From Gayadomonas joobiniege G7 (GTDB lineage Bacteria; Pseudomonadota; Gammaproteobacteria; Enterobacterales; Alteromonadaceae), in contig NZ_AMRX01000008.1 in assembly GCF_000300815.1 (NCBI RefSeq), positions 124,001-188,000 of the forward strand: a DNA stretch of 64,000 nucleotides, given 5' to 3'. Under the pieces are notes generated by a model, which made no database searches, was not told the DNA's origin, and saw only the letters and a program-made list of their open reading frames with translations. The translations under genes and the position numbers were made by a program. This document shows positions 12,684 through 18,810 of this stretch, one piece after another. Position 1 is the stretch's first letter. Each line of letters begins with the position of its first letter.

Positions 12684-12696
12684 CTTCCCAACATAC
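12684..12696 (-). other. Ter-like site 1 (Tus binding, blocks leftward forks)
   Basis: On the minus strand this reads GTATGTTGGGAAG, identical to the two copies flanking the tus promoter. The GTATGTTG core equals that of E. coli Ter sites. By the E. coli rule the non-permissive face is 5' of the core G, here the right side, so a fork moving leftward would stop. Confidence 0.7.
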
Positions 12697-12835
12697 AATT
12701 TGATGCAACATTAACCAAGTATACAAACATTTGCATAAAAACTATTAAGTTTAGAAAATATGCTTAAGTTTTATTTGCATCTTTCAATCAGGTCGCATAG
12801 ATTAACGGCCGACTTTATAAAAAAAGGGGTATAAA

Positions 12836-13111
12836 ATGAATAAAACTGAATTAGTAAAAAAAATCGCAGAAAGTGCTGACATCTCTCAAGCAGCAGCAAG
12901 TAAAACCGTTGATGCATTAATGGCGTCTGTTACACAAGAGCTTGCCGAAGGTGGTAAAGTTGACTTGATCGGTTTTGGTTCTTTCAGTCTGAAACACAGA
13001 GCTGCTCGTAAAGGGCGTAACCCTTCTACCGGCCAAGAAATTGAAATTGCTGCAGCTAATGTTCCTTCTTTTAAACCAGGTAAAGCGTTAAAAGAAGCTG
13101 TAAACAAATAA
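12836..13111 (+). CDS. hup: HU family DNA-binding protein
   Basis: A 91-residue histone-like protein of the HU family: dimerising helices ([28 protein letters not shown]), the family signature [26 protein letters not shown] and the DNA-binding arm, followed by [17 protein letters not shown] bends and compacts DNA and assists origin opening on plasmids. A replicon-borne copy next to the initiator and partition genes is in keeping with that. The SD-like AAGGGG lies ahead of the ATG. About 150 bases upstream, just beyond Ter-like site 1, hold its promoter region. Confidence 0.95.
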
Positions 13112-13162
13112 GTTGATTATTTGTTGGCAGGTGTATTCAGACACCTGCTGCCCTACTCTATT

Positions 13163-13528
13163 ATGACATTCGAACAAAAATTTTGGTTTGTCTATCTCAC
13201 TAATGGCTTAGCTAAAGCGAATCCTTCTCGAATATTTTGTTTATATCATGAGTCAATCTCACATGCCATCGACCTATCGTATCATGAGAGTAAAGCCTAT
13301 ATACGGACAGCCTTAGATAAAGGTGATCATGATCGTCTATTAAATAACTTCCGTGTCGCTCTATACAGGCAAAAACAACAGCAGGTTAATATCACCCTAC
13401 CTGTACAAGTTTATAATAGGTTTATCGCATTACAAGAGGCATTAGAGTTTGATTGTTTAAGCGATACGCTTGAGTTTTTATTATCTATGGATGATAAAGA
13501 TTTTAAACGTTATAAAAAACAAAAATAA
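13163..13528 (+). CDS. Small protein of unknown function with a ribbon-helix-helix-like C-terminus
   Basis: About 121 residues from ATG 13163 (MTFEQKFWFVYLTNG); the frame is open to 13121. The C-terminal part (QQVNITLPVQVYNRFIALQEALEFDCLSDTLEFLLS) has a short strand followed by two helices, the pattern of a ribbon-helix-helix DNA-binding fold, and ends in a basic tail (RYKKQK). It lies between HU and tus, and between Ter-like sites 1 and 2, so a role in replication control or copy number is plausible but unproven. I know no named family for it. Confidence 0.5.
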   Translation: MTFEQKFWFVYLTNGLAKANPSRIFCLYHESISHAIDLSYHESKAYIRTALDKGDHDRLLNNFRVALYRQKQQQVNITLPVQVYNRFIALQEALEFDCLSDTLEFLLSMDDKDFKRYKKQK

Positions 13529-13539
13529 AAAGGCTAAGA

Positions 13540-13552
13540 CTTCCCAACATAC
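13540..13552 (-). other. Ter-like site 2 (overlaps the tus promoter; blocks leftward forks)
   Basis: The minus strand reads GTATGTTGGGAAG. Its non-permissive face points right, toward the putative origin at 16.8-17.3 kb, so a fork leaving that origin leftward meets this site as the first block. It also covers the likely -35 of the tus promoter, giving autorepression. Confidence 0.75.
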
Positions 13553-13569
13553 AAAATATAAACTATAAT
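13541..13569 (+). promoter_or_regulatory. tus promoter
   Basis: A perfect -10 box TATAAT (13564-13569) lies 17 bases after a weak -35 (TTCCCA, 13541-13546) that is inside Ter-like site 2. Site 3 lies about 20 bases downstream. Bound Tus would therefore block its own promoter, as in E. coli where a Ter site overlaps the tus promoter. Confidence 0.6.
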
Positions 13570-13587
13570 ATCAAAACAAACATAAAC

Positions 13588-13600
13588 GTATGTTGGGAAG
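13588..13600 (+). other. Ter-like site 3 (in tus leader; blocks rightward forks)
   Basis: GTATGTTGGGAAG on the plus strand, making an inverted pair with site 2 around the tus promoter. Its non-permissive face points left, so it should stop a rightward fork that has travelled around the circle. Its GGGAAG end also sits 4-9 bases before the tus ATG and may serve as part of the ribosome binding site. Confidence 0.75.
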
Positions 13601-13603
13601 AAG

Positions 13604-14497
13604 ATGCCAAAAAACAAACTAAAAAATCTATATCAAAAATTAACAACAGAAATAAAACAACTTACTATCCCAGAAGACAACTTTAATCTTGTTTACAAAA
13701 TAAGTCCGCTAGATGCACAAAAACAGTTACCTAAAACCATAGAAGAAGGACACCTAGAATTAATTAAAGAGGGACTTCTCCACTTTAAACAAGAAAGTGG
13801 AGAGATAGTAAAACATGTGACTCGTTATCCTGGCGTGATTTGCGTTAAAGATCCCGATGCTTTTATTCGTTTTACCGAGCAAATTAAAATTATAAATGAC
13901 TGCAAAGCAGAGATTAAAGCTTTATTAGCTGATCACGGGAAACCTGCTTATTTAAATGATAAAGAATCCGGCGAAAAACGCTATATAGCAAATGATCTCT
14001 TATTTGAAACTTTGCCTATGGTCAATCAACTGATGTTAACTCGAAAAATAGATACTTATGATGATGACATAAAGTCTGCTTCATTCTCATGGAACCTAGA
14101 TTTTATTCATCAAAATATCGATGACTTTATTCATTATAAAGAAAAGTTAGATAAACGCATCCCCTACCCACCGGAATTATTAACAGCAAATGAGTGGCGA
14201 TTACATATAGAAAAAGTCAAAAATCAAATTGATGCCCATTTAGATAATAATACTTTGGTCAAAATTATCCGCCCTAAACCGATAGAGCCAGTTTTATATT
14301 TAGCATTTAATGATGAAAAACCTAAAACTATTAAACCTAAATTACCAGTGATATTATTTTATAGTGGTCGTGAGTTTCCTGTAAAAAAACTTTTAGGTCA
14401 GCCGCCAAAGCGGCCAGATGAAATTAAAAATGGAAGGAAGTACAGATATAAGAACATAAGTAAGTACTTACATCTGTACGCGTGTTTGAAACAATAA
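13604..14497 (+). CDS. tus: Tus-like replication terminus site-binding protein
   Basis: A 297-residue protein that aligns by eye with E. coli Tus (309 residues) along its length. Matching stretches are TRYPGVICV (E. coli VRLPGVLCY), INDCKAEIKALL, SFSWNLDFIHQNI (RFGWANKHIIKNL), PPELLTANEWRLHIEKVKNQID...LVKIIRPKPIEPV (TREEWQRKLEREYQDI...LKIKRPVKVQPI), and the end YRYKNISKYLHLYACL. Tus binds Ter as a monomer and arrests the replicative helicase from one side. Three Ter-like sites surround this gene, two of them at its own promoter, which supports both the identification and autoregulation. Its 3' end holds a palindrome close to parB. Confidence 0.85.
   Translation: MPKNKLKNLYQKLTTEIKQLTIPEDNFNLVYKISPLDAQKQLPKTIEEGHLELIKEGLLHFKQESGEIVKHVTRYPGVICVKDPDAFIRFTEQIKIINDCKAEIKALLADHGKPAYLNDKESGEKRYIANDLLFETLPMVNQLMLTRKIDTYDDDIKSASFSWNLDFIHQNIDDFIHYKEKLDKRIPYPPELLTANEWRLHIEKVKNQIDAHLDNNTLVKIIRPKPIEPVLYLAFNDEKPKTIKPKLPVILFYSGREFPVKKLLGQPPKRPDEIKNGRKYRYKNISKYLHLYACLKQ
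14440..14479. other. Candidate parS centromere or parAB 3' palindrome
   Basis: A 40-base imperfect palindrome inside the last codons of tus: outer arms GTACAGATATAAG and CTTACATCTGTAC (12 of 13 pair) and an inner perfect 12-base palindrome GTAAGTACTTAC (14460-14471). It lies just beyond the 3' end of parB, the place where P1-type plasmids keep parS. Function is inferred. Confidence 0.4.
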
Positions 14498-14502
14498 AGA
14501 TG

Positions 14503-15438
14503 TTATGATTTTAAAATTTTTAATAACTGAGCCGACAGTTTTTGTTGATTTTTAGCTAACTCTAAAACCAAAGTTCCGTCGGGTTTGACTTTGGTTTTAA
14601 CACCTTTTTTATTCATCGACAGCCATGCAATTTCTTGTTCTGTTTTTTCAACAGGTTCGTTCGGCTCATCAAGTTGCTGTAATACCTTTTTAAACCTGGC
14701 TTGAATTCGATTGGCTTCTTTTTGACAGCTCCCTTCATCGTTTAAATCAATATCCGTGAGTTCTGATTTTATTTGTTGCGCAACATTAATCAGCTTTTGC
14801 TCAGAAATATTGATCAAACTCAGTAAAAATCGAATACTGATATATTTTATCGCTGGAAATAATTTAAACACTGGTTCTGGTATTTTTGTAATAGAAATTG
14901 CATTTTGTGCTGTGCCAGTGCTAACACCAAAATGATCTGCTAATTGTCGAACCGATAAACTAGCGGAATTGTCTTGTATTTGCATTGCTCTAATTGACAA
15001 CGCTAAATCAACTGTTGTCGGCTTTTGGTATTCATCCGCTGATTTAACTAAAATTTTCTCGTCTTCACTCGAAATATTATCGGTTAACCAAACGTAAAAG
15101 TTGGCACCTGGCACTAAAGACACTGCATAAGAACGACGCATACCTTCTAACAAAGTCATTTTGTCTTTACTGCCAATCGCTTTTGCCGGTTCGATATTAC
15201 GCTTCATTTCTTGAATGCTTGGTAAAATATCGTTCACTGCTGCTTTTGTTAAATGTTCGGCGCTGCGTCGGTTAAACGGTGATTTTTTTATTACTTTTGT
15301 TACATCTTCACTGCTTATTTTAACTAACCTAAATTGATAAACACCTTTGCCAGTCGGACTGGGCAAGCTCATGGTATCACCAATATTTGGTCGCTTCATT
15401 TGTGTTCTGGCACTTTTATAAAAAGAATCGTCAACCAT
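14503..15438 (-). CDS. parB: ParB family partition protein
   Basis: A 311-residue ParB of the plasmid type. It has an N-terminal ParB/sulfiredoxin-like region (about 70-140, with LLEGMRRSYAVSLV in place of the GERR motif), a central helix-turn-helix (SVRQLADHFGVSTGTAQNAISITKIP, about 162-187) and a C-terminal dimerisation part. It would bind parS and, with ParA, position replicon copies at division. Its ATG lies four bases after the parA stop, so the two are one operon. It converges on tus, with five bases between stop codons. Confidence 0.9.
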   Translation of the reverse strand: MVDDSFYKSARTQMKRPNIGDTMSLPSPTGKGVYQFRLVKISSEDVTKVIKKSPFNRRSAEHLTKAAVNDILPSIQEMKRNIEPAKAIGSKDKMTLLEGMRRSYAVSLVPGANFYVWLTDNISSEDEKILVKSADEYQKPTTVDLALSIRAMQIQDNSASLSVRQLADHFGVSTGTAQNAISITKIPEPVFKLFPAIKYISIRFLLSLINISEQKLINVAQQIKSELTDIDLNDEGSCQKEANRIQARFKKVLQQLDEPNEPVEKTEQEIAWLSMNKKGVKTKVKPDGTLVLELAKNQQKLSAQLLKILKS

Positions 15439-15441
15439 AAA

Positions 15442-16671
15442 TTAATCCTGCGCAGATGATACTGCTTCTAAAAATCTTAACACTTCGTCTTTGAGGGTTT
15501 CTGTATAAGTTAAAGCTTTATCTAATTGTTTATCTGTACATAATCCTTCGACTTTTTTTATGTCAAAAATTGTACACTGATTGCGAGCCGCAGCTTCAAA
15601 CGCATATGAGCTCACCAACTGGCTACTAAAAATATTTTCCCCTAGTGCACGACGCGCTTCATCCATCATGTGTTTATCACGGCCAAATTCAATATTGTAA
15701 TTTGTCGCTAAGCATTTAAACCATTTAACGTTTTCCCCTTTGTTTGGCAGAGTCGCTAAATGTAATGGTAAATTGCACAAAAAAGAACATGTACTATGCC
15801 AATCTAATTCTCTTGGTGTAAAAGGGACAATGATGCCATCACATGCATATTGTGCAGACCATACTAAAGGGTTGATATGAGGACCAGTATCTATCATGAT
15901 CACATCATAATCATCTCTGATTTCGTCAATGACTTTTTCTTTTAATAAAGAAATATGATCTAATCTACCTTCTTTAGCATAATGCAACCAAGCTTTTTGA
16001 GAAAAGCGCTCATCTTCAGAGTAAGATGGTAAGACATGCAATGAAGGTATATGAGTTTCATGAATGCTATTTTTTAAAATTTGTCGATGAGTATAACCTT
16101 CTTCACGATATGCTTTATAAAGACCATCTTCTTCATCACCTAACATTAAATCGACTGCTGTCAGTATATCAGTACTGTAGTTTTCCTGTGGCAACAAATA
16201 GTTTCTTAACGAGCCTTGGGGATCTAAATCAATTAATAAAACTCGAATACGTTCGTGTAAACCAATTGCAAGTGAAGCGGCTAAAGTTGTTGCCGTTGTT
16301 GATTTTCCAGTGCCACCTTTTTGGTTTTGTAGATTAATTACCTGAGTTTTTAAGTTTCTGTCGGACCATTTAGGTAAACCAAAATGGTTCATTAATACAT
16401 GCATGTGCTTTAGGGTAAACAAATATTTATTTTGTTTTAAAATGGCTGCAGGCACTATGCCGTTTTCAACGGCCTCTTCGTATTTTGCTTTAAAAGTATT
16501 ACGGGACATTTGGCAAACTTTTGCGGCTTCATTCATATTGAGAGAATTGTTTTCAATAATTCTTTCAATATCACCGACCATGCGTTGATTTAATACGCTT
16601 TGATAACGCGAATAATTAAATTCAGTTAACTTTTCGCTTAAATCATTGAGTTTATTGATAACTTTACTCAT
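15442..16671 (-). CDS. parA: ParA family partition ATPase with N-terminal HTH (type Ia)
   Basis: A 409-residue ParA. An N-terminal helix-turn-helix (NMNEAAKVCQMSRNTFKAKYEE, about 45-66) precedes the deviant Walker A QKGGTGKST (about 117-125) and Walker B (VLLIDLDPQGSL). The length and HTH match type Ia ParA (P1/F), which also represses its own promoter. Two inverted repeats just upstream (16708-16760) are likely operators. The gene is divergent from rep; the iteron origin lies between. Confidence 0.93.
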   Translation of the reverse strand: MSKVINKLNDLSEKLTEFNYSRYQSVLNQRMVGDIERIIENNSLNMNEAAKVCQMSRNTFKAKYEEAVENGIVPAAILKQNKYLFTLKHMHVLMNHFGLPKWSDRNLKTQVINLQNQKGGTGKSTTATTLAASLAIGLHERIRVLLIDLDPQGSLRNYLLPQENYSTDILTAVDLMLGDEEDGLYKAYREEGYTHRQILKNSIHETHIPSLHVLPSYSEDERFSQKAWLHYAKEGRLDHISLLKEKVIDEIRDDYDVIMIDTGPHINPLVWSAQYACDGIIVPFTPRELDWHSTCSFLCNLPLHLATLPNKGENVKWFKCLATNYNIEFGRDKHMMDEARRALGENIFSSQLVSSYAFEAAARNQCTIFDIKKVEGLCTDKQLDKALTYTETLKDEVLRFLEAVSSAQD

Positions 16672-16707
16672 ATTAATGATCTTAAAACAATTAGTAAAAG
16701 ATTATAT

Positions 16708-16760
16708 TATCAATGATATTGATACTTAACAAGTGTTTTTGATGGTTGTAAGTATCAATA
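16708..16760. promoter_or_regulatory. parA operator region: nested inverted repeats
   Basis: TATCAAT-GAT-ATTGATA (16708-16724) is a perfect 17-base palindrome. Overlapping it, TATTGATACTTA (16717-16728) is repeated in inverted form as TAAGTATCAATA (16749-16760). They lie 37-89 bases before the parA start, where a type Ia ParA would bind. Confidence 0.5.
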
Positions 16761-16782
16761 TAGACATTCATTATTATACTGA

Positions 16783-17254
16783 TAAGGTGGCAATTTGTGC
16801 GTGTTTTATAAAAGCTCAACTGTTTTTTATTAAGGTGGCATAACGTGCTGTTCATGTGTCTGATCTGATCAATATATATAGAGTTATATATATGATCTGA
16901 TCGATCTACGGATTAGAACTAAAAATCAATAACTTAAACTATTAAAGTGGCTAATTGTAATAGTAAAGAGACAGGTTGTACTTAGTTAAAGTGGCGTCTT
17001 GTACATCTTGAGTGGCCTTAGGTACTTAAACAAGTGGCTAACTGTACCTGGTTAAGTGGCTCTATGTACGAGTTTAGTTAGATTAATATCCTTTATTTAT
17101 AGTACTTGTAGCCACCTTTACCCGTACATAGGGCCTCTTTTTTAAATTAATTTAGTACATTACGCCACCTATAGAGCTTGCATTTATCCGTTTAGTACAT
17201 ATTGCCACCTTAGTATTTTATGATACATTTAATTAACAAGGTGGCGCTTTTTAC
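16783..17254. repeat. Iteron array, putative replication origin
   Basis: Copies of a motif of about 18 bases, roughly AAGGTGGC-N5-TGTAC. Forward copies start near 16783, 16831, 16943, 16964 (degenerate), 16987, 17008, 17030, 17052 and 17237. Those from 16943 to 17052 are spaced 21-23 bases, two helical turns. Inverted copies start near 17102, 17124 (degenerate), 17155 and 17195. Rep_3 initiators bind such iterons, and the rep gene starts 63 bases after the last copy. The opposed group next to rep may serve autoregulation or handcuffing. Confidence 0.85.
16862..16906. other. GATC cluster around an AT-rich stretch in the origin
   Basis: Five GATC sites (16862, 16867, 16894, 16899, 16903) flank a block made almost only of A and T (16871-16893). 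Such a layout fits a DNA-unwinding element under Dam methylation control. It lies between the second and third iterons. No convincing DnaA box was seen. Confidence 0.5.
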
Positions 17255-17316: not shown

Positions 17317-18810
17317 ATGACAGAGTTTGTAGGCTACGGTGAAGAAACAGAACACGGCAATATAGTAACTAAATCTGAACGTGTGATATCGTTTCGGTCA
17401 AAAAACGGATCTCTGACATCTGCTTTATATAAATGCATGAACGCAGTTATGATGGCCCTGCAAAATGATGTAACCAAACGTTATGATTCAATAGAAAATG
17501 TTGAAGCTCTGCTAGGTAATAGCCATTACGATATTGAATTACCATTATCTAAATTCTGTCAATATATGGAATGGAAGTCTAACAATCTAACAAAAGCTAA
17601 AAAAGCCATCTCGTTATTAAAAAACCTTCACATTGAATGGGGCGTTTCAGAAACTCAAGATGGCAAAGGAAATCGACTTGCGGGCGAAGAAGTGGGCTTT
17701 CAACAGTATGTGACACGTGCCGAAGTTCTAAATGGGATGCTGACAATACGCTTAGATGCAGACGTTAGACGTGAACTTTTAAATCATGAAGGTCTAAAAT
17801 CCCTGGCCGTAAATTTAAGAATTGCAAACGGTGCTTGGTCTGATAAATATACTCCTAGGTTGTATGAACTTGCATTGTTTGCCTCTTCAGAGCGAAAAAG
17901 ACGTTTTTCATATACGGTAGAAAAGTTCCGCGAACTAATGAATGTTAGTTATACTTATGAAAATGGTGAAAAAAAGTGGTCTCACGAAAAGTTCAAAGAT
18001 TTCAATAAACGAGTGATATCGCCGGCCGTTAAAAATATCAACAATGCTGACTTTGTTGATTTTACTATCACTCCGCAGTTTGTTGGCAAACCAATTCGAG
18101 AGATAGTATTCTTCATTCGTGAAAAAGAAGACTTAAGTGATCTTTCTGATAGTAATGAATTTAAGGATGACGTTTTAGAATTGTTAGAAGATTTTGGTTT
18201 ATTGCACGTTACCCGCCAATTATTAAACGAAACTAACGAAGACCCCAAGTACTTTGACGAACATATTAGTTTAAAAGATCTTCATTATATTAGCTTTAAT
18301 CTCGATTTATATGAAAAATATGGTCGCAATAAAGACAACCCTGCCCGCTATTTCAAAAAAATGTTGATTAGTAACATTGATAGTTTCGAATCACGTTGGA
18401 AGATCATCGAAAAAGAAGAACGAGATAAACTTAAACAAGAAAAAACACGTTTAAAAGCAGCACAAGCTAAATTGAATGAAGACTTGGAACGAGTTGAAGT
18501 TAATGTCATTAAAGAATATCGCTGTGAGATAGTTGATAAATATTTAAGTGAGCTTTCGGCGGATGAATTGCTCGAAGTGGAAGCGGCGTGTCGTAAACAT
18601 CAGCTTAAAAATAACCCGTCAAGTAGTTATATGTACGATAACCTGCCGGTTAAAGCACTGGAAGCTAACTTACGTGAGTTTATTATTAAACACTACGCAC
18701 CAGAGATATATGTGCGCAGTGAAGTCGATAAACGGGTAAAAAAAGCTCAAAAACTATTTTTAGAAAACCCAGACATTGATGTTGAGTGTTTAACTGACTT
18801 TAATAATTAG
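17317..18810 (+). CDS. rep: Rep_3 family replication initiator protein
   Basis: A 497-residue plasmid-type initiator with two winged-helix domains. The first (about 20-150) includes LTSALYKCMNAVMMALQND and IELPLSKFCQYMEWKSNN. The second (about 160-270) includes NGAWSDKYTPRLYELALFASSERKRRFSYTVEKFRELMNV, typical of Rep_3. A long, charged, partly coiled C-terminal extension (about 300-497) exceeds the usual length of about 230-330. It should bind the upstream iterons and load the replication machinery. GGGGGAAC stands ahead of the ATG. It is divergent from parA. Confidence 0.9.
   Translation: MTEFVGYGEETEHGNIVTKSERVISFRSKNGSLTSALYKCMNAVMMALQNDVTKRYDSIENVEALLGNSHYDIELPLSKFCQYMEWKSNNLTKAKKAISLLKNLHIEWGVSETQDGKGNRLAGEEVGFQQYVTRAEVLNGMLTIRLDADVRRELLNHEGLKSLAVNLRIANGAWSDKYTPRLYELALFASSERKRRFSYTVEKFRELMNVSYTYENGEKKWSHEKFKDFNKRVISPAVKNINNADFVDFTITPQFVGKPIREIVFFIREKEDLSDLSDSNEFKDDVLELLEDFGLLHVTRQLLNETNEDPKYFDEHISLKDLHYISFNLDLYEKYGRNKDNPARYFKKMLISNIDSFESRWKIIEKEERDKLKQEKTRLKAAQAKLNEDLERVEVNVIKEYRCEIVDKYLSELSADELLEVEAACRKHQLKNNPSSSYMYDNLPVKALEANLREFIIKHYAPEIYVRSEVDKRVKKAQKLFLENPDIDVECLTDFNN

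Follow-up and report, generated by a model that had tools for sequence, protein, structure and literature searches.

How does replication end on a second chromosome that carries the terminator gene tus next to its own origin? Do one or two forks leave such an origin? Unidirectional chromids of Pseudoalteromonas with tus beside ori2 have been described by Xie et al. 2021, who, in the available parts of PMC7858055, searched for ter with the E. coli consensus without success and did not decide between one fork and two. One-way copying of P. translucida Chr2 has since been confirmed, according to the accessible text of PMC13342612 (2026). Galli et al. 2019 proposed that tus was domesticated from plasmids (PMC6549158), and Goodall et al. 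2023 compared the chromids with plasmid R1, the ter site being marked '?' in the legend of their Fig. 3B (PMC10331603). A Tus/ter trap on unidirectional chromids and a plasmid origin of the E. coli trap have thus been proposed before, and by the available parts of these three papers (PMC7858055, PMC6549158, PMC10331603) the ter sites of such chromids had yet to be identified. What is accessible of PMC10272867 refers to the second replicon of Catenovulum as a single multipartite genome.

The window, by which we mean the whole stretch of 64,000 bp analysed here, is C1:124001-188000 of Gayadomonas joobiniege G7, whose assembly comprises 3.91 Mb in 8 contigs. The contig C1, of 769,523 bp, is very probably a plasmid-derived second chromosome (chromid); it carries genes for RepA, ParA and ParB as well as iterons and a dif site. 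The original prediction, made from the letters of the window, was of a Tus/Ter fork trap beside a plasmid-type origin. In the open-licence literature searched we found no report of the Ter sites described below, nor of a chromid Tus that serves a main chromosome. What appears to be new is the identification of candidate Ter sites in chromids of two genera, a predicted trap that tracks the terminus, and a single Tus that probably serves the main chromosome as well. With concrete sites in two genera, the idea of Tus/ter on chromids becomes directly testable.

Tus, predicted Ter sites and origin in the window

The features between the outermost predicted Ter site and the initiator gene are as follows.

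12684..12696, - strand: predicted Ter site 1; exact GTATGTTGGGAAG, profile E 4.5e-5 (a training site); would be the back-up block to leftward forks
12836..13111, + strand: HU-family DNA-binding protein (PF00216, E 9.6e-35), between sites 1 and 2
13121..13528, + strand: small protein; C. sediminis and C. agarivorans YM01 have distant homologues (24-27% identity) beside tus and the predicted Ter pair
13540..13552, - strand: predicted Ter site 2; exact GTATGTTGGGAAG, profile E 2.0e-4 (a training site); would be the main block to the leftward fork
13588..13600, + strand: predicted Ter site 3; exact GTATGTTGGGAAG, profile E 5.2e-4 (a training site); would block the rightward fork
13604..14497, + strand: tus, replication terminus site-binding protein, 297 aa (PF05472)
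14503..15438, - strand: parB (NCBIfam plasmid ParB, E 1.1e-8)
15442..16671, - strand: parA (PF13614, E 3.2e-23; NCBIfam partition RepA/ParA type, E 4.5e-36)
~16787..17210, no strand: iteron origin, nine GTGGC...GTA repeats (six +, three -), 3.2 kb to the right of site 3
17317..18810, + strand: repA, Rep3-type initiator (PF21205, E 1e-8)

The original prediction named three copies of a motif with their strands, a Tus-like gene, an iteron origin about 3.2 kb to the right, and ParA and ParB between the two. All of these stand. An exact search of the window for GTATGTTGGGAAG returns those three sites alone, in the order -,-,+; the ORF at 13604-14497 scores 50.2 bits against PF05472, where the cut-off is 22; nine iteron-like repeats are present; and the partition genes have family matches at the positions expected. 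When three mismatches are allowed, the window holds 16 matches to GTATGTTGGGAAG against 15.8 expected, so looser copies are meaningless. One further exact copy is present in the whole genome, at C7:592335. A MatP identity for the ORF at 13121-13528 found no support, with an hhalign probability of 0.2% to E. coli MatP and no Pfam MatP match.

The Tus of the window has the Tus fold with its DNA cleft, and PF05472 is matched by five of the seven members of the Tus alignment at E <= 0.001. Its score of 28.3 bits against the E. coli-type equivalog NF002810 is below the cut-off of 323 bits, which makes it a distant homologue and not an enterobacterial equivalog. The residues that we take to form the base-flip pocket of E. 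coli Tus (F140, H144, G149 and L150) align to N, F, M and V in the window protein, at 21% identity overall; this lack of conservation counts against a trap of the E. coli type. The Ter core starts with a G whose partner C (position 6) flips in the lock. This core, GTATGTTG, is common to E. coli TerB and the window sites, and the site types listed below for Catenovulum and Pseudoalteromonas all retain its initial G. A phmmer search of the PDB sequences gave no Tus match. A genome scan with PF05472 found tus in 2 of the 8 genomes of the genus and a protein query in 7 of 8; the PF05472 scan missed the window's own tus, so absences from it mean little.

Skew along the second chromosome

The original prediction expected a single replichore with no second skew reversal, and C1 examined over its whole length bears this out. 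Taken in 20-kb bins, GC skew comes out positive in 38 of 39, and the cumulative skew rises by 17,158 in total with a largest fall of 259, giving one sign over 769.5 kb. The agreement that had been seen between gene direction and one-way copying holds as a bias to the + strand, but a modest one (321 of 493 ORFs of at least 150 aa). Top-strand skew is +0.094 in + ORFs and only -0.023 in - ORFs, so the positive skew persists once gene direction is balanced. There is a local cumulative maximum at window position 13133, on the trap side, and a minimum at 16017, on the iteron side; the minus-strand parAB alone could cause this short counter-slope.

The dif site of C1, dif2, is at C1:116624, about 24 kb to the left of the origin, with one mismatch to the dif pattern of the genus. 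Both dif sites of this genome were found with a second dif pattern, the first having missed them. The single skew sign and the dif near the origin are as expected of a unidirectional chromid, and the replicon should be copied in one direction only. At C1:114546(-), window position -9454 and 2 kb from dif2, there is a copy of GTGTGTTGGGAAG, one base off the Ter motif; it is a possible weak fourth Ter site with the polarity of sites 1 and 2.

Polarity of the sites and a model for one-way replication

In E. coli, TerB stops the clockwise fork. We checked the sequence and found GTATGTTG on the + strand just upstream of tus, in agreement with the E. coli polarity rule on which the original prediction relied. 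By this rule the -,-,+ order in the window, which had also been foreseen as an opposed orientation beside the iteron origin, is one that forks may enter and not leave. Around dif1 on the main chromosome the order is the same.

The product of tus would bind the three oriented Ter sites. A fork sent leftwards from the origin would pass site 3 from its permissive side and be halted at site 2 after ~3.2 kb, with site 1 as a back-up. The rightward fork would copy the remaining ~99.5%, pass sites 1 and 2 and be halted at site 3, and so would not re-enter the part that has been replicated. The 5' leader of tus is covered by site 3 as well, the ATG coming 3 bases past the end of the site, so Tus probably limits its own synthesis.

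We put at about 0.83 the probability that Tus and Ter at this locus form a replication fork trap, placed to the left of the origin of a second chromosome that derives from a plasmid. The trap predicted here resembles that of the E. coli chromosome in the family and fold of Tus, in the 8 identical bases of the core GTATGTTG, in having a Ter site immediately before tus, and in the opposed sites around dif, here on C7. It differs in that Tus identity is only 21%, the second half of the site is GGGAAG where E. coli has TAACTA, and tus is on a secondary replicon. A second likeness is to the terRL/terRR sites of plasmid R1, which lie near the origin in opposed orientation and make copying one-way, as stated in the accessible part of PMC10331603. 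The R1 sites are between the minimal origin and the leading-strand start, whereas those of the window are at a distance of 3.2 kb, have tus in cis and belong to a replicon of ~770 kb.

Sites around dif of the main chromosome

Does Tus serve only the chromid? Exact GTATGTTGGGAWG, in which W was allowed after the sites had been seen, occurs six times in the genome: at the three window sites and at C7:592335(-), 599747(-) and 620638(+). All three copies away from tus are within 16 kb of dif1 and have trap polarity. A perfect dif1 is present at C7:607,719, between the - and the + sites. The cumulative-skew maximum of a 400-kb stretch of C7 is at 607,454, 265 bp from dif1, where the skew turns from + to -; to the left of the dif1 region 81 of 106 ORFs are on the + strand, and to the right 53 of 129.

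A profile was trained on five chromid sites only, three from the window and two from C. sediminis. In the whole genome it gave six matches at E <= 10 among the best 150 of 595 candidates scored: the three training sites and the three around dif1, with E values of 8.6e-4 (C7:592335), 0.027 (C7:620638) and 1.17 (C7:599747). A weight matrix made from the same five sites was run over C1 and C7:400001-800000, and in the C7 stretch it ranked the dif1 trio at the top, with 28.4, 24.4 and 19.9 bits. In one simulated 4-Mb Markov sequence no match reached at least 24 bits and two reached at least 20 bits. By this null C7:592335 and C7:620638 are strong, and C7:599747, at 19.9 bits, is weak alone and at chance level.

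Two other matches were seen. At C1:619913(+) a copy of GCATGTTAGGAAG has 19.9 bits, again chance level in the null, and the polarity to stop a rightward fork. At C7:577190(+), 30 kb from dif1, GTATGTTGTGATG has one mismatch and the wrong polarity for the trap; it is outside the 12 best matrix matches. KOPS, an abundant motif of the terminus region, and other such motifs were considered as the source of the dif1 sites and rejected, as six exact copies of GTATGTTGGGAWG are too rare.

Could the three dif1 matches be a coincidence in coding sequence, with Tus serving the chromid only? All three are inside ORFs, annotated by eye as a low-molecular-weight phosphatase, an aldose epimerase and a cobyric acid synthase. 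They are absent from the corresponding positions in C. sediminis, and in six relatives the stretches examined around dif1 contained neither GNATGTTGGGA nor GCGTGTTGGGA; the sites on the main chromosome therefore appear to be a novelty of this lineage. These points, and the weakness of the third site, are what a coincidence would leave behind. Against it stand two sites with scores that the 4-Mb null does not reach and the placement of three out of three within 16 kb of dif1, for which the chance is ~5.5e-7, or 6.8e-8 with polarity, W having been chosen post hoc. We think a coincidence unlikely. Tus from the chromid would apparently act in trans at the three dif1 sites as a conventional trap. 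It is a likely reading, given where the sites are and how they score, that the one Tus of a one-way chromid also traps forks of the main chromosome, and that a plasmid trap has here been caught during its adoption by a chromosome.

The predicted trap and the terminus among relatives

Opposed [-,+] pairs are found beside tus, ~50-116 bp apart, in five replicons.

This genome: 48 bp apart
C. sediminis chromosome 2: 116 bp apart
Saccharobesus litoralis plasmid: about 100 bp apart
C. agarivorans YM01: 112 bp apart, downstream of tus
C. agarivorans DS-2: 99 bp apart, downstream of tus

Chromosome 2 of C. sediminis, which carries tus, is complete at 759,041 bp and has one skew sign in 19 of 20 samples (here and in C. 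adriaticum, 20 samples of 10 kb each were taken). No counterpart of the window RepA was found in C. sediminis, and the initiator of chromosome 2 there is probably a different one. At ~418-430 kb the skew is opposite, and ORFs there look by eye like transposase and Rhs genes.

On pCadTS8_2 of C. adriaticum the arrangement is another. The skew is positive in 10 of 10 samples to the left of ~319 kb and negative in 10 of 10 to the right, and tus is at 322-323 kb. Here dif2, at 307358 and opposite the origin, lies between TTGCATGTTGGGATTTT at 292556(-) and TTGCGTGTTGGGATTAT at 323476(+), and within two mismatches there is no other match in the 136 kb scanned. In C. agarivorans YM01 a second pair, without tus, is present at C9:181810(-) and 181925(+). 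It is at a skew switch, with 7 of 8 bins positive to the left and 8 of 8 negative to the right. Contig C9 of this draft assembly has a second RepA, tus was found only on C11, and the two are likely to be different replicons. To the left of the trap on C11 there is no clear one-sign skew.

Thus the predicted trap follows the terminus among these relatives, as far as sites and skew can tell. They form a natural series, in which the trap is beside the origin (one-way copying), opposite the origin around dif2 (two-way copying), in trans on another replicon, or around dif1 of the main chromosome. The series bears on whether one or two forks leave ori2, on the purpose of a fork trap and on the route from plasmid to chromosome.

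Might the sites instead be operators for the control of tus, with a single fork loaded at the origin giving one-way copying and the trap irrelevant to direction? Site 3 is directly before the tus ATG, as TerB is in E. coli. Operators would leave unexplained the pairs downstream of tus in YM01 and DS-2, the tus-less pair at the YM01 skew switch, and the sites around dif2 in C. adriaticum and dif1 in this genome; the rightward fork, on its return, would still be in need of a stop. We regard this explanation as quite improbable, and autoregulation and a fork trap are not mutually exclusive. That C1 is an arm of the main chromosome, for which one-sign skew would be expected, is a very remote prospect: the assembly is in 8 contigs, and a check of the whole of C1 found no overlap between its ends and did not establish a circle, but C1 is equipped with a separate RepA, ParAB, iterons and dif, its C. 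sediminis counterpart is a complete 'chromosome 2' with the same one-sign skew, and the main chromosome switches skew at its own dif1.

A fork trap remains our preferred reading of the window, and further genomes gave the following observations. In C. maritimum no site was found within 6 kb of its tus. Matches are present in that genome at C2:124442(+), C27:32355(-) and C8:151202(-); they comprise GCATGTTGGGAAG on two unplaced contigs and AGATGTTGGGATAAT at 249 bp from dif1. Genome G007 yielded no tus, no match to the window RepA and one dif by pattern; it may be a relative in Catenovulum that lacks this chromid. A search for GGGA-type sites around four tus loci from other genera (L152-L154, L156) gave none. 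At two other tus loci of the order (L155, L157) an E. coli-type site, GTATGTTGTAACTA, is beside tus.

Probable Ter sites of Pseudoalteromonas chromids

An inverted-repeat search found an opposed pair upstream of tus in two loci retrieved with the Tus alignment, one of which is 73-77% identical to Pseudoalteromonas chromids over most of its length. These two loci, together with 8 of the 12 chromid-type records that headed the listing (H19-H30), made a set of ten. All ten tus loci have one + copy and one to four - copies of GTATGATGTGTTC with at most two mismatches. In nine of the ten the nearest - and + copies are 100-112 bp apart; in the other, NC201, they flank tus. GTATGATGTGTTC probably represents the ter sites that had eluded earlier authors.

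The Pseudoalteromonas chromids share with C1 a one-way skew with tus and dif near the origin (available parts of PMC7858055 and PMC6549158) and the [-,+] arrangement of sites. They differ in genus, gene order and Ter motif. The gene order suggests that ori2 is located between parA and repA; if so, Pseudoalteromonas would have the same trap to the left of the origin. On the chromid of Pseudoalteromonas sp. NC201 (L308, 1.24 Mb), the four - copies are on one side of tus and the + copy is on the other, giving a wider predicted trap.
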